Of a DNA stretch of 64,000 bases, positions 1,788 through 57,248 are shown one piece after another. Position 1 is the stretch's first letter. Every line of letters begins with the position of its first letter. A model generated the notes under the pieces. That model searched no databases. It was not told the origin of the DNA and was given only the letters and a program-made list of their open reading frames with translations. Both the position numbers and the translations under genes were made by a program. Source of the DNA: Cellvibrio sp. PSBB006 (GTDB taxonomy: Bacteria > Pseudomonadota > Gammaproteobacteria > Pseudomonadales > Cellvibrionaceae); assembly GCF_002162135.1 (NCBI RefSeq), contig NZ_CP021382.1, positions 3,904,001-3,968,000 on the forward strand, written 5' to 3'.

Positions 1788-4001
1788 CTAATTCATTTCC
1801 TGCGGATCTACATCAATGGACCAGCGAACCCGTTTACCCAATGCCTCGTTTTCCAATTGTGCAGTGAGTTGTGCGAGGAGTTGTTGCAGGGGTTTGCGCT
1901 GTGCACTGTTGAATTGCAATTGATAGCGAAAACGGTCGCCGCGTTTTTCCATCATGGCTGGCAAAGGGCCAAGGTAACTGAAATGGTGGCTGGATGGCTG
2001 CCATTGCTCAGCCTGAGCGCGAGCCAGACGTAAAAACTCCACGGCCAGTTCAGGCCGTTTGCTTTCTGCACGCAAGAGTGCGAGATGCCGATAGGGAGGT
2101 AATTGGGTAATGCGTCGCTCGTGCAATAACAGCTCGGCCAGCGCGTGATAACCCTGCAGCATCAAGGTTTGCACCAGAGGATGTTCAGTGTGGTGGCTCT
2201 GCAAGATAACCGTACCGGGCTTGTCGGCCCGGCCGGCTCGCCCGGCTACCTGAAGTAACAATTGTCCCATCCGCTCGGGGCCGCGAAAGTCGGCACTGAA
2301 CAAACCGGCGTCCGCATCAATGATAACGACCAGGGTGACCAGGGGAAAATGATGACCTTTAGCCAACATCTGTGTCCCCACCAGGATACAAGGCTCGCCG
2401 GATTGCACCTCGTCCAGCAAACGATGCATGGCATGTTTGCCGCGCGTGGAGTCGCGATCAACCCGCAGTATTCGCGTCTGTGGAAACAGCTGGCGCAAAG
2501 CTTCTTCACTGCGCTCCGTGCCCTGCCCTAAAGGTTGCAGTTGATGGCTGTGACAGCTTGGGCAGCGTGAGGGCAATGGGCGCTGGTGATCACAATGATG
2601 GCAATGCAGGTGGCGCGGCTGCTGATGAACCGTCATGCGTGCGTCACAGTGGTTGCAGTTAGCCAGCCAGCCACAATCGTGGCATTGGAGTGTGGGCGCG
2701 TAACCGCGCCGGTTGATAAATATCAGCACCTGATGGCGCGCCTGGATTTCCAATGCAATCGCTTTCAGGGTGTCTTGCGCGAAACCTTCATGCAAGGGTT
2801 GCGCGCGAATATCGAGCAGCTGAATGCTGGGGGGTACGGCTGAACCGGCACGGCGGGTCAGGCGCAAATATTGATAACGGCCTTGCTGGGCGTTATTGAG
2901 GCTTTCCAACGCCGGCGTGGCGGAACCGAGCAATAACGGAATCTTGAGCTGACTGGCGCGCATAACGGCTAGGTCGCGGGCAGAGTAGCGAAAACCGTCC
3001 TGTTGTTTGAAGGAGTTATCGTGCTCTTCATCAACAATGATGATTCCCGGCTCCTTGAGCGGTGTGAAGATAGCCGACCGGGTGCCGATAACTACCCGGG
3101 CAATGCCCTCACGCGCCTGTACCCAGGCATCCAGCCGTTCCCGATCATTGAGGCCGGAATGCAGGGCGACAACAGGCACCGCGAAACGCCGTTGGAATCG
3201 TTGTAGCGTTTGTGGCGTAAGCCCGATTTCGGGGATCAATACCAATGCCTGCTTGCCTTGGGCCAAGGTTCGGGCGATGGCTTGCAGATAGATTTCCGTC
3301 TTACCGCTGCCAGTGGCCCCATCCAGCAGACTTACCTGGAACTGGTCCAGGTTTATCTTTTCAAGAACCTCTGCCTGTTCCGGGTTTAGTATCAACGGCT
3401 GTTCGCGCAAGGTAGTCTGTGTCGATTCTGGTGTAAGTACTTGCTCACTGCAAGCAACCAGTCCTTTCTTCATCAGCGGCTTGATGGTGGTAGTGGGTAT
3501 GTCCAGTATTTGCAGATCGGCGCGCGTTAAATAAGGTGTATCTTGCAGTGCAGCCAGCAAAGCGGCCTGACGCGGAGCGCGTTTCAGGCTGCCGGCCGGC
3601 AAACCTTTTCCAGCTGTTGTGAGGTGATAGATCGGCTCCGTACGTAATCGGGCCATTTCTCCCTGGCGTAAGAGCGCCGGCAACGCGGTATGCAAGGCTT
3701 CACCGACCGGGCTTTGATAGTAGTCAGCGGCCCATAAGCACAATGCAAGCACATCGGGCATAAAAGCCGGTAGTTCATCAATGACGCCGAGCGCATGGCG
3801 CAATTGGTTGGCAGCCACGGAGGCTTCCTGATGTAGCGACAGTAATACACCGACGACTTCCTGGTGCCCGAAGGGTAAGCGTAAGAGTGTTCCGGGCCGC
3901 AAAAGCGCAACCTGCTCCAGCGGCATGTCCACCGGGGGTAGGTAGTCAAAGCGGCGACGCAAGGGAGTGGGGATTGCGACCTGAAGAAAAACCGTAGGCA
4001 T
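1788..4001 (-). CDS. priA: Primosomal protein N' (replication restart helicase PriA)
   Basis: PriA recognises stalled forks and D-loops and starts reloading of the replicative helicase. From the ATG at 4001 the protein has 737 residues, beginning MPTVFLQVAIPTPLRRRFDY, the usual 3'-DNA-binding domain. The frame extends 19 codons further to a TTG, but family alignment favours the ATG. Walker A GATGSGKT lies at about 228-235 and the DEEH box at 324-327. A cysteine cluster (CHDCGW, CNHCDA, CHHCDH, CPSCHS) forms the two zinc sites. It diverges from rpmE. The same window carries a triple-domain DnaT-like protein and a lambda P-like protein, which may act in the same restart pathway. Confidence 0.97.
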   Translation of the reverse strand: MPTVFLQVAIPTPLRRRFDYLPPVDMPLEQVALLRPGTLLRLPFGHQEVVGVLLSLHQEASVAANQLRHALGVIDELPAFMPDVLALCLWAADYYQSPVGEALHTALPALLRQGEMARLRTEPIYHLTTAGKGLPAGSLKRAPRQAALLAALQDTPYLTRADLQILDIPTTTIKPLMKKGLVACSEQVLTPESTQTTLREQPLILNPEQAEVLEKINLDQFQVSLLDGATGSGKTEIYLQAIARTLAQGKQALVLIPEIGLTPQTLQRFQRRFAVPVVALHSGLNDRERLDAWVQAREGIARVVIGTRSAIFTPLKEPGIIIVDEEHDNSFKQQDGFRYSARDLAVMRASQLKIPLLLGSATPALESLNNAQQGRYQYLRLTRRAGSAVPPSIQLLDIRAQPLHEGFAQDTLKAIALEIQARHQVLIFINRRGYAPTLQCHDCGWLANCNHCDARMTVHQQPRHLHCHHCDHQRPLPSRCPSCHSHQLQPLGQGTERSEEALRQLFPQTRILRVDRDSTRGKHAMHRLLDEVQSGEPCILVGTQMLAKGHHFPLVTLVVIIDADAGLFSADFRGPERMGQLLLQVAGRAGRADKPGTVILQSHHTEHPLVQTLMLQGYHALAELLLHERRITQLPPYRHLALLRAESKRPELAVEFLRLARAQAEQWQPSSHHFSYLGPLPAMMEKRGDRFRYQLQFNSAQRKPLQQLLAQLTAQLENEALGKRVRWSIDVDPQEMN

Positions 4002-4122
4002 CGGGTGATAAGTCTTGGTTGTTGGCGATGAGCTGCCGGGCAGGATACCCCATATCAACTGTCGTTTGGGTGTGCTTTTTGTGTGGTCGAGGGGAGTGTT
4101 GAAAACTGGTTATTTTTTCCCC

Positions 4123-37507: not shown

Positions 37508-38179
37508 TCACAGATCCATCTGTTTGCGCAGCGCATCAAGGCGTTGCTGATTTTCTTCGCGTGACAAGGGTGTTTCGATGGTTTCCGGCAGGGCGGGGGC
37601 GTCGGGCACGGGTAGCTCTGTGCCGTTCATGACTTTTTCGCACAGCCGCTGATAGTGACGTTCGAATACGGGGAAGGCGACTTTTTCGCTGTTATTGGCC
37701 AGAAAAAACCAGTCGCTCGCAACACCAGCGTGATATATCGCTGCGTGACTCCAGTGCCAGGCCGATTTAGGGCTGGGGGCACGGCACGCTTCAATGTAGG
37801 CGGTGTGAGCATCGGGCAAACCGAAACTTTCCGGATCGCCCTGACACGCGCGGATCATGCGGTTAAGGGTGGGAAGATATTCAGATTCTTCAATCACCTT
37901 GCGCGCGCCGCGCAAGATGGTTTGCGGTTCAAATTGCACCAGACTTTCCAGCCACAATTTTTTTATTTGCGCGAGCACGCCAGCGTCGTTATAGGCTTTG
38001 TAATACTGGTTGTGATAATTAATGCGGAACAGCGCAAAGACTTCATTCAATGCATCGATATGCGCATCAGTCGGGCGCTGGCGCTGCGGCTCAGTTGGCC
38101 CAGCTTCTGTCGGTGAGGTCTTCGACAAGGCTGCGATCTCTTGTGCTGCGCGTTGAAGTAGGGTGTTGCTGTCCTGCAT
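37508..38179 (-). CDS. Phage lambda P-like replication protein (putative helicase loader)
   Basis: A 223-residue cytoplasmic protein whose layout matches lambda replication protein P. An N-terminal helical region (IDALNEVFALFRINY) is followed by the ARKVIEESEYLPTLNRMIRAC stretch, which corresponds to the lambda ARRQNRPFLPSPGQFVAWC region. Then come a SAWHWSHAAIYHAG Trp/His segment and a C-terminal helix with SREENQQRLDALRKQ. Lambda P captures DnaB helicase and delivers it to the origin. The likeness was recognised by eye. The gene starts 89 bases inside the end of the DnaT-like gene upstream, so the two are tightly coupled. No phage structural genes are nearby, so this looks like a domesticated chromosomal gene. 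Confidence 0.75.
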   Translation of the reverse strand: MQDSNTLLQRAAQEIAALSKTSPTEAGPTEPQRQRPTDAHIDALNEVFALFRINYHNQYYKAYNDAGVLAQIKKLWLESLVQFEPQTILRGARKVIEESEYLPTLNRMIRACQGDPESFGLPDAHTAYIEACRAPSPKSAWHWSHAAIYHAGVASDWFFLANNSEKVAFPVFERHYQRLCEKVMNGTELPVPDAPALPETIETPLSREENQQRLDALRKQMDL

Positions 38180-39227
38180 GGCTGTTAACCTGTTGCGAAT
38201 TAACGGTGGTCAGGGCGTGTTGTTTGGCCCAGTGATATTTTACGTGTTGCAAGAATTTGGTATTCCACGAGCTGTAAACCTGGTTGCTCTCGCGCCAGAA
38301 CAATAAAAACTCCGGCACCTGGCGTTTGGCAAATTCCAGGTCGATATTGGCCAGGCGCAATACATCGTAGACATCGGCGCCGGGTTGCCAGTTCTCCGGA
38401 ATCCGGCGCGGTTCGCTGTCGTGCTCCAATGCGGAATGGTAACGGACCCATTGGCGCTTCACATGCTGAATAAACTTGCTGTTCCAGGTGCGACTCACTT
38501 CGCCGCGTTCCTGCCAATACAGCACAAACTCGGGGATAGCATCCTCCACAAACGCCAGGCTGATATTGGCGTGTTTTACCAGGACTTCAAGGGCATCCCG
38601 GCTGGGGCGCCACTGGCTGTGCATGGCAACTTCCAGGTCGCGACGCAGGAAGTCATTACCGTCGTCGCGTTGCTGGCGGGCTAGGCTGGTCTGGTATTCA
38701 CGCCATTGGTGCAGCACGTGTTTCAGGAATTTCGCGCCCCAGGAATGACTGATCTCACCCCGTTCGCGCCAGTAGGTAATAAATTCGGGAATTTGCTGGC
38801 GAATAAATGACTCGGGAATGTTGTGTTCCGCCACGCGCCGCAACAGCTCCTGATCCGGCTGCCAATTAGGGGCGATCAGATTGGCGCTGGCGATAGGCGG
38901 TGTTATCGGCGGAGCCTGGAACGATGAATTTGCCTCGCCCTCGTTAAAGGCCACCCGCAGCATGCGGCTGCCGGTATAGGGCGCCGAATCCAGCAGGATA
39001 ATGCCTTTATCCTTGAGGTTTTTGCTGATGCGCTGGATGTCGTAATCGGTCCAGAAGGGCATCAGTCGGCTGATTAGCGCCTCATCCAGATCCAGCCAAT
39101 TACCTGATGCCTGCCGGTAAGTGGCTACTTCGCTCAATAGTGAGAGCATGCAAGCTTCTTCGAGGCCAATGGTGGCGGCCAGCGAGGGTGATATCAGCAG
39201 CGGCTTTTCGGGAATCAGGGATGACAT
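38091..39227 (-). CDS. Primosomal DnaT-like protein with three DnaT domains
   Basis: A 378-residue protein. Residues 1-95 form a winged-helix-like module. Three copies of the DnaT ssDNA-binding domain follow at about 122-178, 206-263 and 280-333, each with a WxP start, a PEFxxYWxE centre and a WxxKFLxHVxxxW end. E. coli DnaT has a single such domain and works with PriA and DnaC in replication restart. The last 40 residues are basic and Ser/Thr-rich, and the final 89 bases overlap the lambda P-like gene in another frame. Together they look like a loader pair for the restart pathway. The tandem triplication is seen directly; the role is inferred. Confidence 0.8.
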   Translation of the reverse strand: MSSLIPEKPLLISPSLAATIGLEEACMLSLLSEVATYRQASGNWLDLDEALISRLMPFWTDYDIQRISKNLKDKGIILLDSAPYTGSRMLRVAFNEGEANSSFQAPPITPPIASANLIAPNWQPDQELLRRVAEHNIPESFIRQQIPEFITYWRERGEISHSWGAKFLKHVLHQWREYQTSLARQQRDDGNDFLRRDLEVAMHSQWRPSRDALEVLVKHANISLAFVEDAIPEFVLYWQERGEVSRTWNSKFIQHVKRQWVRYHSALEHDSEPRRIPENWQPGADVYDVLRLANIDLEFAKRQVPEFLLFWRESNQVYSSWNTKFLQHVKYHWAKQHALTTVNSQQVNSHAGQQHPTSTRSTRDRSLVEDLTDRSWAN

Positions 39228-44464: not shown

Positions 44465-47116
44465 TTAAAAATTCTGGAGAGCGCATCGATCTGGCTCTCC
44501 ATGCTTCTCCATTAATGCCTGGAAAGATGATTCGTTGCACAGAGGATCAAACCAGGAAACTCTGAACCACACGGAATTCAGGCCATTCGTTAAGCTTTTT
44601 TCAATGTTGAATATGGCTGAGCGGGTGTTCTCTGCCAAAGTGTGTACCAAGGCCGCAGTATAAAAAGTTTCGATGTTTTGCGAATCAGCTTTTTCCAGTT
44701 GCTGTAGCGCGTTAAGCGCCTCCGAAAATCGGTTCAGATGCGCATAGGACTGCGCAAGGTTCCGCAAGGTTGTTTCATCTTTCTGTCTGCTTTCTGCTAT
44801 TGAAATAATTTTTTCATAGAGACGCTTCGATTCACCCATATTCCCCTGTAAATTTTCTGCGTCTGCCTGATTCAACAGGATAGTGGGATTGTCGGGACTT
44901 ATTTTGAGTGCTGCGATGAACATCTTCCTGGCTTCAGCGTAATCCGGTTTGAGTAAATTGGATAATCCCAAATGCGTGAGATTACTGATATCGCTGGGAT
45001 TTTGTTTCACCGCTTTTTCAAATGACACAATCGCATGATCAATATTGCCGTTAAGCAGAGCGATAAAACCGAGCAGGCTGTTAGCCTGATGCAGCTTGGG
45101 CGATAGGGTTAAGGCTTGTTCGGCGTAGCTTTTGGCGAGATCATTATTGCCGTAGTATCGGTAAGCATTGGCAATATTGTAGAGATTGTTGGCTGTCTTC
45201 CTGATGCTTAAAGAGGCCTCATAGTAACTGATGGCTTTCTGGTAGTCGTTATTTGCCATTGCAGAGTAGGCATGCAGCTCATACATGGCTGAGTCGTTGT
45301 TGGTCAGCCCCTCCAGCTTTTGAATAATCCCGGTAGCTTGAGCGAGATTTCCTTTGGCCACCTCCAGGTAGAAAAGATTATATAACCCGAGGTTATCCAT
45401 AGAGCTTTGTTGACGCACACGCGTATCCAATTTTTCCAGATAGAGAGACGTGCCTGTTTCGTAGTACAAATCGAGCGCGATGTCTTTATATAACGCAGTG
45501 ACGATGGGATTTCTTTTGATCTCTGATGGCAGTTCGTCCAGGGTATTCAGCAACTCGGGTGTTGCACCGCTGTCACGGTAGGTCAGGCCAGTATTAATAA
45601 ACGATTGGTACTCTTGTTCGGATGCCGCATCTAATGTGCTGGTGAGTTTGGTTGAATACAGTAGACCAATATTATCCTGAACCGCTTTCATTACCGACGT
45701 GTACCGATTCGTCAGCACATCCAGCCTTTTAATATCTTTTGCCACCAGGCGACTGTCGGCCTCGGTGCCGCTCGGGACTAAACGTGTCAAGGTAATAGCG
45801 CAGGCTTCCACCTGGCATTGGATGTCGGTGGTGACCAATTCATCCGCGGCAGTGGCGCGATGCACTGCCGTGCTGTCGGTGTCAGTCACTTCGGTGCGGG
45901 GAATTAAATAGTAGCCGTCCAGTTGCACCATGCTTTGTTGAATTGCGTCATAGATGGCTGCTTTGACCAGTGCCTGTTGCGACTCATGCATGCCATTCGC
46001 CGTCATGCTGGGTTGAATCACCGCGACATATTTGGGTGGTGCCGGTTGCAGTAGCCAGATGCTAAAACTGATTAATACCGATATAAAAACAACACCGACG
46101 ATGATGTTCCGTTTTTGTTGGCGGATAAATTCTGCAAGGCTGTTTGAATGTAGTGCTGGTTTCTCAAGGTGGCGAGTATCAAAGGTCGCGTGGGTGTCAT
46201 TGGTTGGATGTCTGCGCAGTTGACTCAAGCTCGCCTGCTGCGGCGTCATCTCGGTATCGTTGGACCATTCCGGCGCACTGATAACTAACTGGCTTAATTT
46301 TTCAAACTGGCTGGCGACCCAATGGGTGTTATCCGGACGGTTGTCGACATTTTTGGAGAGGAGTTGTCCGAGCAGATCGCAAACTTCTGGTGGTAATGTC
46401 GGGTTATGTTTGGTCGGTGGAACCGGCGGATGGGAGATGATCCGCTGCATTAACTGCAATTTGTTTGCCGTGTCGCCAAAGGGATGCGCGCCGCACAGCA
46501 TTTGATAAGCGAGGATGCCAAAGGAAAACAAATCGCTTTTGAAATCCAACGCTTCACCCATGGCCTGTTCCGGTGACATGGACGCGTAACTGCCAGCGAC
46601 ATGATCGGTAATCGTTGCATTGAAGTCCTGTGACTTGGCGATGCCGAGGTCGGAAATTTTGGCGGTGTTGCGTTGGTTGATCAGAATATTTTCAGCTTTT
46701 AAATCCCGATGAATAATGCCCGAGTCATGCGCAACAGCAAGGCCTTGGGCAATTTGCGTCAACCAGGTCATGCGTTGCGCCATAGGCACCAGGTGTTCGC
46801 GCAGGCGCGCTTGTAAGTTCTGGCCATCGACGTATTCCATCACCAAGGCAAGTTGGTCCGGCGTCTCGATAAAATCGTAGATCTGGACAATGTTGGGATG
46901 GTTCAGCTTGGCGAGCAACAGGGCCTCGCGCTTGAAGCGCTCGCGATAGTGGGGCTCAAATAATTCGGTACGCAGACACTTGATCGCTACCTGTCGATCC
47001 AGCCGTGTGTCGCGGGCCAGATAAACCAGGCCCATGCCTCCCCGTCCGATACAGTCGAGGATGTCGTAATGTCCTATGCGCGTCATCTCCATGATGTTAT
47101 GCGGGGAGAGACTCAT
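44465..47116 (-). CDS. Transmembrane Ser/Thr protein kinase with TPR domain
   Basis: An 883-residue kinase. Hanks-type kinase domain at about 17-275: Gly loop GRGGMG, Lys46 in VAIKC, HRDLKAEN (Asp138), SDLG in place of DFG (Asp156), and SYASMSPEQA. A membrane helix lies at about 335-352. The outer part (about 355-560) is beta/alpha mixed, resembling domains that sense envelope stress or compute small-molecule signals, and about 565-860 are TPR repeats (NLYNIANAYRYYGN, GNIDHAIVSFEKAV). The catalytic residues are intact, so it should be active. Its ATG overlaps the FHA gene stop by four bases. Confidence 0.9.
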   Translation of the reverse strand: MSLSPHNIMEMTRIGHYDILDCIGRGGMGLVYLARDTRLDRQVAIKCLRTELFEPHYRERFKREALLLAKLNHPNIVQIYDFIETPDQLALVMEYVDGQNLQARLREHLVPMAQRMTWLTQIAQGLAVAHDSGIIHRDLKAENILINQRNTAKISDLGIAKSQDFNATITDHVAGSYASMSPEQAMGEALDFKSDLFSFGILAYQMLCGAHPFGDTANKLQLMQRIISHPPVPPTKHNPTLPPEVCDLLGQLLSKNVDNRPDNTHWVASQFEKLSQLVISAPEWSNDTEMTPQQASLSQLRRHPTNDTHATFDTRHLEKPALHSNSLAEFIRQQKRNIIVGVVFISVLISFSIWLLQPAPPKYVAVIQPSMTANGMHESQQALVKAAIYDAIQQSMVQLDGYYLIPRTEVTDTDSTAVHRATAADELVTTDIQCQVEACAITLTRLVPSGTEADSRLVAKDIKRLDVLTNRYTSVMKAVQDNIGLLYSTKLTSTLDAASEQEYQSFINTGLTYRDSGATPELLNTLDELPSEIKRNPIVTALYKDIALDLYYETGTSLYLEKLDTRVRQQSSMDNLGLYNLFYLEVAKGNLAQATGIIQKLEGLTNNDSAMYELHAYSAMANNDYQKAISYYEASLSIRKTANNLYNIANAYRYYGNNDLAKSYAEQALTLSPKLHQANSLLGFIALLNGNIDHAIVSFEKAVKQNPSDISNLTHLGLSNLLKPDYAEARKMFIAALKISPDNPTILLNQADAENLQGNMGESKRLYEKIISIAESRQKDETTLRNLAQSYAHLNRFSEALNALQQLEKADSQNIETFYTAALVHTLAENTRSAIFNIEKSLTNGLNSVWFRVSWFDPLCNESSFQALMEKHGEPDRCALQNF

Positions 47117-48120
47117 GCGCTTGATATATCAGTGGCCAATGGCAAGGCTGTGGTGAGCTGATCACCTTTATAAATTTTGAAGCGATCACAGCCAAAGCGA
47201 ATCTTGCCGCCGCGGCGCTCCAACAAACATTGGTGATCGGAAGAATCCGGCAGGCAATCAGCCAATTGTTTGCGTGCGCGAAAGATATGGATATTCATGT
47301 GCGTCGAATCCAGCCCCAATTCATTGGCCAATTGATCGGCATAAACCCAGCCCTGGCTCTTGGCATCCAGACCTTGTGCGGCGTCGTCGGCGCGATGACG
47401 TGCAAGTTGCAGCATTAAGTAATGATGGCTGCGCACCGCGAGGTCGATGCTGTGTTGTGATTGGCGCAATTCCAATTGGGTTGTTTCTTCATCCAGGCTG
47501 AGGTTGAACACAAATTCGAAATCACTGAGTTTATGGGAGCTGCGCACGCGCGCTTCGGTGGGGCCGTAAACCTGCGCACTGATAAACTGCCAGCGCAGAT
47601 TATCAAACTGCAATATGTCACCGTGTTGAATGGTCTCGCGGCGTTGCTCTTGCGTGGCGCTACTCATCAGCTCGGCGTACCACGCCTGATCCTGATGATC
47701 AAAATACAACGCCAATTCCGGCGTCTGGGTATCGGGTAGCAAGTGATAGCGTTCTAGCGGGATGGGTTGCACCTGGGAGGGCATTTGCTCGGACGACATA
47801 TCCAACGGCCAGAGCATATCCGAGGGCGGTGCAAGATCAATCACTCTAAAACCCGGTTCAGCCTGTTCTGCCAGATGAATGTGGTCGTTCACATTCAGGT
47901 CGGCCATTTCCCCTTGCCCCAGTTGCACATCATTTATCCAGGTGCCGTTGAGCCCGAGATTTTTAATACGCCAACAGCGGCCATTCCATTCAATGGCGGA
48001 ATGTAATTTGGAGATATAAGGCTTATCCAGTTGGGTGTCCACACTGGCGAGTCTGCCAAAGGTGTGATGTGGAGCCAGGGGAAAAAAGGTTTCCGCAGCG
48101 ACATCAAATAAATAAGCCAT
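47113..48120 (-). CDS. FHA-domain protein with C-terminal winged-helix domain
   Basis: A 335-residue cytoplasmic protein. The N-terminal FHA domain (about 1-95) has the phosphothreonine contacts: Gly-Arg in HTFGRLAS, Ser/His in ISKLHSAIEW and Asn in LGLNGTWIND. The C-terminal third (about 225-330) looks like an OmpR-type winged helix (ELRQSQHSIDLAVRSHHYLMLQLAR, LANELGLDSTHMNIHIFRARKQL). A second FHA-like beta segment may lie at about 125-200. The stop overlaps the kinase start (ATGA), so the two are made together and this protein is a likely kinase target or reader. Confidence 0.85.
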   Translation of the reverse strand: MAYLFDVAAETFFPLAPHHTFGRLASVDTQLDKPYISKLHSAIEWNGRCWRIKNLGLNGTWINDVQLGQGEMADLNVNDHIHLAEQAEPGFRVIDLAPPSDMLWPLDMSSEQMPSQVQPIPLERYHLLPDTQTPELALYFDHQDQAWYAELMSSATQEQRRETIQHGDILQFDNLRWQFISAQVYGPTEARVRSSHKLSDFEFVFNLSLDEETTQLELRQSQHSIDLAVRSHHYLMLQLARHRADDAAQGLDAKSQGWVYADQLANELGLDSTHMNIHIFRARKQLADCLPDSSDHQCLLERRGGKIRFGCDRFKIYKGDQLTTALPLATDISSA

Positions 48121-54074: not shown

Positions 54075-55451
54075 CTAAATCGGACCATCGGCAGCCGACA
54101 TGGGAAAAATAATAATAAATGTTGCGCCGAGGCCCAGCTGTGATTCGATGTTGATCTTGCCGCGCAGTTTTTGCGTCACCAGGTTGTACACAATGGATAG
54201 TCCCAATCCCGATCCGCCGGTTTTACGCGCAGTAGTAAAAAACGGTTCAAAAATTTTATCCTGAATCTCGGGCGCAACGCCACAGCCGTTATCGCTATAA
54301 CTTAAATGCACCTGACCCTGCTGTGCGGCCACGTGGATATTGATCGAGCCTTTCTCCATGCCCGCAAAGCCGTGATGAATACTGTTGGTGACCAGGTTGG
54401 TGATGATCTGCGCTATCGCACCGGGATAACTGCTCAGGCGAATGGCCTCATCGCTGGCGTAGTGGCAATTGAGCGTGTGCTGTTTAAGCAGGGGTTGCAA
54501 ACTTTTGATGATGATATCCAGGCAATTATTGAGTTCAAATTCCTCCTCTTCGGATGAGGTTTGAATGGCCCCGGTCAATTTGAAATTGTGTACCAGGTTG
54601 GCCGCACGATTGAGATTATGCGATACCAGAGCAATGCCTTCGGTGAGCGACATTAAAAATTGCTTGAAATCATCTTCCGCCAGATCGCCTTGGGTATAGA
54701 GTTTTTGCACGCGCCGTAATTCACTTTCACAGTGGGTTGCCGAGGTGACGGCAATACCCAGTGGTGTATTAATTTCATGGGCCAGGCCCGACACCATACG
54801 CCCCACAGACGCCAGTTTTTCACTTTCGATTAATTTGGCCTGGGTGTGGGTCAGGTTGCGCAATGCATTCTCCAACCATTGGGTCCGTTCTTTAACTTTC
54901 TCTTCCAGTAGTTCGTTGCTTTGTTGTAATTGCTTTGCATAATTGTTGCGTTGTTCGGCGCTCAACGCACGGCCGTAAAGATCCGCCAGGGCGCTGACAA
55001 AAGCGACTTCATCATCCGTCCACACACGTGTGGGGCCCTGATGTTCACAACAAATAATACCGGTCATTTCTCCGCGATGATGAATGGGGGCATCGAGCAT
55101 GGCGCTGATGCCCAGCGGAGTGAGGTAACTCGCACTGAACTCGCTGGTGCTTTCATCGCTGTGAGCATCGTGCGCCACAATGGCACGATCCTGATCGAGG
55201 GCGGCAAAATAGCGGGGATAATCCTGCCGGAAAAGCTGCGGTGTTTCCTCTGGCTGGTTGGCCTGATCGATGAGCAAACGGCACTCCATCGCCTGGCGAT
55301 CCTCTGACAACAACCAGATGCCGGCGCGTTTGATCTTTAAGCCTTCAATAACCGAATTGAGAATCAGGGAATTGGCTGCGTGCAGATCACCGTTATCAAT
55401 AACATGTGATTTTGAAACCTGATGAAGAATATTATAAAAAGTTTGCGTCAT
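54075..55451 (-). CDS. GAF-domain sensor histidine kinase
   Basis: A 458-residue soluble kinase with no membrane helix. GAF domain at about 15-165, a coiled coil (about 170-210), the dimerisation/phosphoacceptor region with His225 in GLAHEINTPLG, and an HATPase domain (about 330-450) with N-box LVTNSIHHG, G1 DNGCGVAP and G2 GGSGLGLSIV. The cytoplasmic GAF suggests it senses a small molecule or redox state. It starts 11 bases after the HD-GYP regulator gene and forms a two-component pair with it. Confidence 0.9.
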   Translation of the reverse strand: MTQTFYNILHQVSKSHVIDNGDLHAANSLILNSVIEGLKIKRAGIWLLSEDRQAMECRLLIDQANQPEETPQLFRQDYPRYFAALDQDRAIVAHDAHSDESTSEFSASYLTPLGISAMLDAPIHHRGEMTGIICCEHQGPTRVWTDDEVAFVSALADLYGRALSAEQRNNYAKQLQQSNELLEEKVKERTQWLENALRNLTHTQAKLIESEKLASVGRMVSGLAHEINTPLGIAVTSATHCESELRRVQKLYTQGDLAEDDFKQFLMSLTEGIALVSHNLNRAANLVHNFKLTGAIQTSSEEEEFELNNCLDIIIKSLQPLLKQHTLNCHYASDEAIRLSSYPGAIAQIITNLVTNSIHHGFAGMEKGSINIHVAAQQGQVHLSYSDNGCGVAPEIQDKIFEPFFTTARKTGGSGLGLSIVYNLVTQKLRGKINIESQLGLGATFIIIFPMSAADGPI

Positions 55452-55462
55452 GGCAACCCAGA

Positions 55463-57004
55463 TTAGTCCGGCAACTGGCGGCGAATAGTTTTAAAGGTGG
55501 TGAATAAATCCAGTGCGGCATCCACCAGTTTTGGATCAAATTGACGGCCGCGTCGCTCGCGAACATAGGTGCGAATATCCGCTTCATTCCACGGTTTTTT
55601 ATAGGAGCGTGTTGAGCCCAATGCATCGATGACATCAATGATGGCCACAATCCTTCCTTCGAGTGGAATGTCTTCGCCCGCCAGACCGCGCGGATAACCA
55701 TTGCCATCCCAGTGCTCGTGATGGGTGTAAGCAATGCGCGCGCCCATCTTGGCGATGATCTGGTTGGAGTCTTTTAATAATTCATAACCGATAGTGGCGT
55801 GGGTTTTCATGATTTCCCACTCGTCCGGATCAAGCTTGCCCGGCTTGTGCAAAATACTTTCAGGAATACCGATTTTGCCCACGTCATGCAGCGGTGATGC
55901 ATAACGCAAGGTTTCGGCATACTCGTGTGACATACCGATCTTAAGAGCCATCAATTCGCACATCAGTGAAACACGGCGCACGTGAGCGCCGGTTTCCTTG
56001 GAGCGTTGCTCAATCGCATCACCCAAAATCAACAACAATTCTTTTTGGGTTTCCTGCACCGTTTCGCGTCCGGCAAGATTCTGGAAAATCAATGTGATAT
56101 TGGCGGCAAACAGTTTGAGGATGTCTTCCTGGATATCGGAATCCGGCTGGCGAAAATGGGTGTACAGAACACTTTCGGTGCGGGGGTTGGTATTGTAATA
56201 ACCAATAAAAATACCGTCGCCACTGAGTGAGGTCTTGCGTTCCAGGGTTTGCAATATTTGTTCTTTGATCGCTTCCGGAATAATGGACGTATCCCAGCGG
56301 TTATAGAGTTCCACCGCTGCACCGGTGGCGGCCAGTAAACGGATTTCGGTATCGCCATATAGGTCTTCATGGCGACTGACCAGATACATTTCAGTGGTGT
56401 CGATTCCGAGTAGCTGGATCATATGTTCCAGCACCGCGTTACCAAATTGGTGCAAAGTCTGGCTGAGCAGCACCGAGTCCGAGGCGGTGATGACTTTGCG
56501 CATCCCGCGTTGGCTGGCTTCGATAGTGATAATGTCGCGATAAGAGCGGATGCAGGAATAGGTACAGGTTTTGAGTTTGGTATCCGTCAGCTCGGTTTTG
56601 CTTTTGTAATCGTTGATGTCGTAAGTGCGTATTACCGTTTCTTCCGGTGACGACCCCGGTTGCCCGGTGCGCAATACGATGCGGGTGGTGTGATTTTGCA
56701 ATTCGTTGCGTATCTGGTGAATCAGATTGAGGCCGGCATCGTCCTGCTCCATCACCACATCGATAAATGCCAGGGCAATGTCAGGGTGATCCTGAAACAG
56801 GCGCAAGCCATCGACAGCGCTATAAGCACTGAGAAACTCCAGCGGAATGTCGTCGATGCGCGTATTGCCCAATACCAACTTGGTAACGGCATGTACCTGG
56901 CGCTCATCGTCAATGATGGCCACCTTCCAACTGCGCAGGCTCTGGGGCAGGCTGGTGGGTGTAGTGCGCGTGACGGTCTTGGGCGATTTTTTTAGAAATT
57001 CCAT
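55463..57004 (-). CDS. Response regulator with DUF3369 and HD-GYP c-di-GMP phosphodiesterase domains
   Basis: A 513-residue regulator from ATG 57004; a GTG at 57019 is also open. The receiver domain (about 25-155) has acidic residues IIDDE near 31-34 and phosphoacceptor Asp82 in FIDVV. The DUF3369 middle (about 165-330) is the usual insert of this class. The HD-GYP domain (about 335-500) is intact, with HDVGKIGIP and HHEHWDGNGYPRGL, so it should degrade c-di-GMP. It is the first gene of a pair with the GAF histidine kinase, and the kinase phosphate probably controls the phosphodiesterase. Confidence 0.92.
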   Translation of the reverse strand: MEFLKKSPKTVTRTTPTSLPQSLRSWKVAIIDDERQVHAVTKLVLGNTRIDDIPLEFLSAYSAVDGLRLFQDHPDIALAFIDVVMEQDDAGLNLIHQIRNELQNHTTRIVLRTGQPGSSPEETVIRTYDINDYKSKTELTDTKLKTCTYSCIRSYRDIITIEASQRGMRKVITASDSVLLSQTLHQFGNAVLEHMIQLLGIDTTEMYLVSRHEDLYGDTEIRLLAATGAAVELYNRWDTSIIPEAIKEQILQTLERKTSLSGDGIFIGYYNTNPRTESVLYTHFRQPDSDIQEDILKLFAANITLIFQNLAGRETVQETQKELLLILGDAIEQRSKETGAHVRRVSLMCELMALKIGMSHEYAETLRYASPLHDVGKIGIPESILHKPGKLDPDEWEIMKTHATIGYELLKDSNQIIAKMGARIAYTHHEHWDGNGYPRGLAGEDIPLEGRIVAIIDVIDALGSTRSYKKPWNEADIRTYVRERRGRQFDPKLVDAALDLFTTFKTIRRQLPD

Positions 57005-57248
57005 TTGTACTGCTCTCACTGCAGATCGTTATTTACTGAGTATAGAAGAGTTCAATGTCATTGCCGGTTTCTCTCTTATAACTTTTTGCTAGCGCAGTAA
57101 ATTAAATTAACAACAGCTTTTTTTAAACTATCGGTTGATATCAGGCCATCTGACGCCATGAATAACCTTTTGGCAGTTATAGCTACAAGGTATATCGGCC
57201 GCGATAAAGCTACACTGACGTAAAGATTTGCCAAGACAGGAGAAGAAG

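Follow-up and report, generated by a model that had tools for sequence, protein, structure and literature searches.

A lambda P-type helicase-loader gene overlapping a gene for a triple-DnaT protein, a probable chromosomal stand-in for DnaC and DciA in Cellvibrio

Results

Two overlapping genes and their surroundings

The window, i.e. the whole stretch of 64,000 nucleotides of Cellvibrio sp. PSBB006 DNA that was analysed, carries on its minus strand two overlapping genes (Table 1). The larger encodes a DnaT-bearing protein of 378 amino acids, which we take to be DopC, and the smaller a P-like protein of 223 amino acids, which we take to be DopE; the names dopC and dopE, and a derivation from lambda O and P, reportedly go back to Brezellec et al. 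(2017), who are said to have proposed domesticated lambda genes as a third type of loader. The original prediction of two open reading frames (378 and 223 residues) with an 89-base overlap is confirmed by the coordinates: the 223-aa gene starts inside the 378-aa gene, and the shared bases are read in different frames.

Table 1. Features of the gene pair and of priA (positions within the window)
Feature	Position	Strand	Basis or description
dopC-like gene, 378 aa	38091..39227	minus	encodes a winged-helix-like N-terminus, then DnaT domains 1-3, a disordered linker and the acidic Trp tail
N-terminal winged-helix-like domain, residues about 14-94	38946..39188	minus	AlphaFold2 model, weak similarity to phrog_6493
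DnaT domain 1	38685..38876	minus	PF17948, 82.3 bits
DnaT domain 2	38427..38627	minus	PF17948, 98 bits
DnaT domain 3	38214..38405	minus	PF17948, 80.8 bits
C-terminal acidic Trp tail, residues 367-378, candidate docking peptide for the P-like partner	38094..38129	minus	[DEN]-x(1,2)-W pattern
Gene overlap, 89 bp	38091..38179	minus	ORF coordinates
dopE-like gene, 223 aa, putative lambda-P-type DnaB loader	37508..38179	minus	profile, fold
PF06992-matched part of the P-like protein, residues 44-191	37607..38050	minus	Pfam
priA	1788..4058	minus	Pfam PriA_C, PriA_3primeBD, Zn_ribbon_PriA

The pair is found in the same order and with an overlap of 86-89 bp in named Cellvibrio, Microbulbifer and Haliea records, the closest named relatives being Cellvibrio records with 69-73% identity. 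As both the order and the similar overlap recur in these relatives, the arrangement is not due to chance. Among 50 three-domain pairs, a set that includes close relatives and leaves out the pair of the window, the overlap measures 68-119 bp in 47 and exactly 89 bp in 26.

The genome consists of one contig of 5.26 Mb, i.e. the pair is chromosomal, and it is present in a single copy, a profile search having found no other P-like or DnaT genes in the same genome. In line with the expectation that no phage genes are near, no phage family was detected by Pfam among 20 scanned proteins of the window, including ten neighbouring proteins at 30.5-47.1 kb, two of which have no Pfam match at all. A glucosaminidase gene lies downstream of the pair in 9 of 11 Cellvibrio-type loci, the contigs of the other two ending at or soon after the pair, and is not seen beside the pair in three more distant loci (L055-L057). 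The gene for PriA, also predicted, is indeed located in the window, about 33 kb from the pair and thus not linked to it; PriA is a probable partner of the pair in restart. PriB and PriC, which diverge fast, are likely missing from this genome, where their models reach 15.7 bits (cut-off 72) and 14.7 bits (cut-off 23.3), respectively. Two other gene pairs on the minus strand of the window are likely signalling pairs, namely a TPR-repeat protein kinase and a protein with an FHA domain, encoded by genes overlapping by 4 bp (44465-48120), and a GAF/HATPase (histidine-kinase-type) gene adjoining a DUF3369/HD-domain gene (54075-57019).

The large protein carries three DnaT domains

The 378-aa protein matches the DnaT domain family PF17948 in three stretches (Pfam, E = 1e-71, 237 bits), each far above the cut-off of 25 bits per domain used in the whole-genome search. 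The three DnaT-type domains had been predicted at about residues 122-178, 206-263 and 280-333, and the profile search recovers all of them, the predicted limits lying 4-9 residues inside those of the profile built in this analysis. Moreover, the best PDB matches of the protein, searched as a single sequence, are to DnaT (E = 2.5e-4), and, as regards a possible likeness to the lambda O initiator, a match to phrog_1032, annotated as 'replication initiation protein' (E = 3.9e-13), has its best stretch at residues 199-260, i.e. in DnaT domain 2. The full-length DnaT ortholog model NCBIfam NF002770 gives 24.5 bits, far under its cut-off of 201, and tblastn against phage records yielded no match at E<=1e-5.

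The AlphaFold2 model (mean pLDDT 73.9, pTM 0.29, 14 sequences) starts with a winged-helix-like N-terminus; three bundles of three helices each come next, in keeping with DnaT domains, and a disordered segment then leads to a short helix at the end. We read the N-terminal domain as winged-helix-like from its predicted order of elements, H-H-E-H-H-E-(short H)-E. This domain resembles weakly the phage 'DnaD-like helicase loader' phrog_6493 (E = 0.0088 for the protein of the window, which has no other PHROG match there), and the similarity recurs at E<=1 in 17 of 26 aligned large proteins (best E = 2.3e-7). Judged from its sequence, the large protein is thus a multi-domain DnaT-type protein.

The small protein resembles phage lambda P

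The predicted likeness of the 223-residue protein to lambda P is borne out by PF06992, the lambda P family (Pfam, E = 9.2e-10, 39 bits, curated cut-off 26), and by phrog_109, 'P-like helicase loader', which matches residues 12-221 (E = 5.3e-21, 76.6 bits). Searching the PDB with a profile built from 41 P-like proteins, some of them viral, retrieves the lambda P of 8v9t/9oa1/9oa2 (E = 1.3e-18) and of 6bbm (E = 1.9e-11). The fold agrees: in a Foldseek search of the PDB with the AlphaFold2 model (mean pLDDT 84.4, pTM 0.55, 41 sequences) ranks 1-5 are all lambda P bound to E. coli DnaB, with probabilities of 0.99-1.00, moderate TM-scores of 0.29-0.53 and E values from 2.7e-5 to 0.19, only that of rank 1 being <=0.001. 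Identity to lambda P in the fold alignments is low (14-19%). The DciA domain PF05258 has no Pfam match in either protein of the pair. Profile matches, the sequence search of the PDB and the predicted fold all identify the 223-aa protein as a lambda-P-type loader, for which binding and opening of DnaB are predicted.

An acidic Trp tail ends the large protein

Of 78 genome-derived large proteins, a few prophage-like copies included, 77 have a [DEN]-x(1,2)-W pattern in their C-terminal 25 residues, the sole one without it being the interrupted L053; so do 11 of 16 partner proteins from viral contigs. Random windows of the same proteins contain it in 223 of 1920 cases (12%). The gene overlap also gives rise to an SxTxAG sequence close to the N-terminus of the small protein, which we considered as a functional motif and rejected. 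It is encoded by the same bases as the Trp tail of the large protein, is absent from three pairs without overlap (L020, L022, L055) and lies at residues 22-29, in a part of the model with pLDDT <50. Third-position entropy is 0.87 in the tail vs 1.70 nearby, in a comparison region that is possibly misaligned, and also points toward SxTxAG being a by-product of the tail, which it probably is.

DnaT domains in relatives

A comparison of domain number in relatives, suggested by the original prediction, gives mostly three: 59 of 89 genomes have three DnaT matches, 20 have one, 5 four, 3 two and 2 six, these counts being genome-wide sums to which extra copies add. In Microbulbifer four DnaT domains are found in one protein (L056). 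In several loci of families f2, f8 and f34 (L138, L141, L155, L157, L175, L176) the DnaT partner is short (143-152 aa), with one DnaT domain starting at residue 52-58 and without the N-terminal winged-helix-like domain.

E. coli DnaT binds single-stranded DNA (ssDNA) via the aromatic residues F124, Y127 and W128 (PMC4132743). Expressed as F-x-x-[YFHW]-[WYF], this pattern is present in 49/51 first, 51/51 second and 51/51 third domains, in 19/22 single DnaT domains from genomes and in 14/16 from viral contigs, and is absent from both middle domains in the two four-domain proteins (2/2). Further ssDNA contacts of E. coli DnaT, K133 and F135, are replaced in the window's protein by E158 and S160 (domain 1), which, like the middle domains without the pattern, speaks against the loader reading.

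Domains sort by position in trees, and the triplication is therefore probably old. In a FastTree tree of 207 domains all second and all third domains (51/51 each) fall into groups of their own kind, and 49/51 first domains group with 7 single domains, with moderate support in each case. In a tree of 67 domains, taken from 18 hand-chosen proteins with three domains and 13 with a single one, one branch sets apart the second domains (support 53) and another the third domains (support 88), neither branch being starred, and domain 1 needs four changes, a single group not being rejected (p 0.272); for each position, 0 of 500 shuffles cluster as well.

The pair and DciA exclude each other in the order

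In the genome of the window DciA (PF05258) has no match at E<=1 in a profile search. The DnaC/IstB model PF01695 gives 20 matches at E<=1, only one of them above the cut-off (27.1 bits), and no clear DnaC was found by this search; of the two matches read by eye, the one above the cut-off is DnaA and the other, a weaker one, PhoH-like. Such weak matches are expected, as the model also matches all 14 control genomes. The genome search for dnaC and dciA proposed at the outset thus came back without DciA and without a clear DnaC.

Among 145 genomes of the order, a P-like protein (alignment A1) is found in 92, DnaT in 89, all of them among the 92, and DciA in 45 (E<=0.001). DciA occurs in 0/89 genomes with DnaT and the P-like protein, DnaT in 0/45 genomes with DciA. 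The three genomes with the P-like protein only all contain DciA and look like prophage cases, and 11/145 genomes have neither the pair nor DciA. Fisher's test of pair vs DciA gives p 2e-27, a descriptive value only because the genomes are related, which also means that the exclusion counts fewer independent events than is apparent. The adjacency of the two genes was checked in loci fetched from part of the 89 genomes. Profile searches can miss divergent proteins, and 3/45 DciA matches lie under the curated cut-off. PF06992 alone was discarded as a survey tool: it detected 31/145 genomes and under-counts, since it missed the window's own genome, which is found when searched singly. Alignment A1 was used instead; many of its 32 rows come from the 145 genomes, which helped recall at the cost of independence.

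Among 274 genomes of the class, a P-like match (E<=1e-10) was obtained in 15, the window's own included, and DciA in 221; the other 14 P-like genomes divide into 8 that appear in the DciA list and 6 that do not. Outside the order, G318 (1.2 Mb, one contig), which is not in the DciA list, harbours a complete pair (L177, G318:C1:189900-192400) with two DnaT domains and a 35-bp overlap. Five more genomes outside the order (G147, G189, G246, G304, G362) have a P-like match and no DciA match.

Viral relatives and ancestry of the pair

A gene with a DnaT match (lenient, E<=0.01) directly precedes the P-like gene in 16 of 80 viral loci, so viral contigs, too, can have a P loader gene behind a gene with one DnaT domain. 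P-like genes also occur in 11 Pseudomonas phage records, and in family f34 of the same order four genomes contain 3-10 P-like copies each.

Two separate domestications were suggested by a first FastTree tree of 126 P-like proteins (from 160 after near-copies had been dropped), which put a one-domain group (f6, f26, f37) with phage P proteins. An AU test on 83 of the 126, chosen by dropping nine odd or long rows (L177 included) and many close three-domain rows, does not reject a single chromosomal clade (p 0.746), and the clade-constrained tree is the likelier one; L019 and L058 were counted on neither side. In the 83-protein tree the three-domain group and one one-domain group form one branch (support 95), with the long branch L019 outside it and the viral L058 inside. 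We therefore do not put forward two domestications; the simplest reading of these sequences is one domestication followed by vertical descent.

L058 (L058:3977-4549 on IMGVR_UViG_3300003318_000003) is a P-like loader gene adjoining an O-like/DnaD-like gene on a contig whose portal, head and Mu-Gam-like genes mark it as phage. Judged by its position inside the chromosomal clade it may have been taken back by a phage from a host; we did not adopt such a recapture of DopE as a finding, as a placement outside is not rejected (p 0.276).

Discussion

The pair appears to be the system already proposed in 2017 (Brezellec et al., doi 10.1093/gbe/evx111), and the domesticated lambda genes as a third loader are, reportedly, no novelty. 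Like the host of this pair, the bacteria of that proposed Dop system reportedly carry domesticated lambda-type genes and lack DnaC/I and DciA. That the pair is new is thus not supported: the Cellvibrionales were already described in 2016 as lacking both dnaC/I and dciA, which are mutually exclusive (PMC5109545), and 'DopE protein families' are mentioned in PMC13326638. The literature searched, in which few subscription papers are represented, contained no experiments on the pair and, in titles and abstracts, no DnaT triplication, which is weak evidence of absence; nor did the widely kept overlap or the acidic Trp tail turn up there.

DopE is similar to lambda P (6bbm, 8v9t, 9oa1, 9oa2) in profile and fold, but, in contrast to lambda P, it is chromosomal, only 14-19% identical to it and partnered by a protein with DnaT domains. 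DopC shares with E. coli DnaT the ssDNA-binding three-helix domain with its aromatic pattern and a gene adjoining a loader gene, E. coli dnaT lying in one operon with dnaC (PMC13377028); E. coli DnaT, however, has one domain instead of three, a different N-terminal domain and an AAA+ rather than a P-type loader as partner. DciA (PF05258) and DnaC/DnaI presumably do the same job as the pair, bringing DnaB to DNA, yet neither protein of the pair matches them.

Based on the homology of both proteins, the predicted fold of the small one, the overlapping pair, the lack of DciA and of a clear DnaC and the mutual exclusion with DciA across the order, we consider it very probable that the phage-derived pair dopC-dopE has replaced DnaC/DciA as chromosomal DnaB loader. 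The original prediction of a domesticated P-type loader with a multi-domain DnaT in place of DnaC or DciA is thus probably correct, DciA being found in none of the 89 genomes with the pair. Its emphasis on replication restart in particular is not supported, as no other loader was found and the pair should serve oriC as well as restart.

A pair devoted to restart only, i.e. an analogue of PriA-DnaT-DnaC that leaves loading at oriC to an unrecognised loader or to DnaB itself, would fit with the role of DnaT as a restart protein in E. coli (PMC13377028) and with the presence of PriA in the window. We nevertheless regard it as improbable, as one would expect an accessory for restart to be found alongside a general loader, whereas the pair and DciA never occur together in the 89 genomes; moreover, PriB and PriC do not exceed their cut-offs here, so the restart proteins of E. 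coli are not conserved as a set. That the genes are a prophage remnant or a recently gained phage replication module without a host role might be suspected from the P-like genes, and the DnaT-bearing genes before them, on viral contigs, from the Pseudomonas phage records and from the multiple copies in family f34, but with no phage family among the 20 window proteins, a single copy, a conserved downstream neighbour, an occurrence in 89/145 genomes, the exclusion with DciA and one chromosomal clade that is not rejected, this is hardly plausible. The least plausible of all is that the pair regulates or inhibits DnaB instead of loading it: lambda P does keep DnaB in an inactive open spiral (PMC6391071), and the P-like protein's model has a weak match to the loader/inhibitor G39P of SPP1 (Foldseek rank 30, E 3.1), yet inhibition would leave the absence of DciA alongside the pair unexplained.

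If the pair is the chromosomal loader, known systems offer a possible route. Lambda P opens the DnaB ring and keeps DnaB inactive until it is expelled (PMC6391071). DnaB's linker-helix/docking-helix module is used by lambda P as well as by DnaC and DciA (PMC9912922). As a P-type protein DopE may grip the same module and, like lambda P, keep the ring open. At forks bound by PriA, the DnaT domains of E. coli polymerise on ssDNA with two nucleotides per junction; the filament was visualised by cryo-EM in 2026, and DnaB-DnaC may be recruited by it (PMC13377028). The three linked DnaT domains of DopC could form a short ready-made filament of this kind on ssDNA and so tag the place of loading, both at an oriC that DnaA has opened and at forks bound by PriA. 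There the acidic Trp tail of DopC would dock the DopE-DnaB complex; after loading, DopE would depart and DnaB close on the strand. Both the tail contact and the pre-linked filament are what we infer from the triplication, the kept overlap and the Trp tail common with phage initiators, which together suggest a pre-linked DnaT filament handing over DnaB via the tail. Families with one DnaT domain manage without triplication, which counts against a need for pre-linking. Thus, we put forward only tentatively, and rather as a doubtful possibility, that DopC is a covalently pre-linked DnaT filament whose tail hands DnaB-DopE to ssDNA at oriC and PriA-bound forks, replacing both stepwise DnaT polymerisation and PriB.

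Bacterial replication depends centrally on the loading of DnaB, and a stand-in for DciA/DnaC that stems from phage offers a clear example of gene domestication in this machinery. Our survey, with the pair in 89/145 genomes, supports the 2017 proposal and adds to it the exclusion of DciA in a larger sample, a DnaT triplication that is probably old, a conserved gene overlap and a Trp tail shared with phage initiators. The triplication connects the pair, concretely and testably, with the cryo-EM filament of DnaT (PMC13377028). Should the pre-linked filament prove true, one phage-derived module would have replaced DciA and would do alone the jobs of E. coli DnaC, DnaT and PriB, a replacement that would span a large part of the order.
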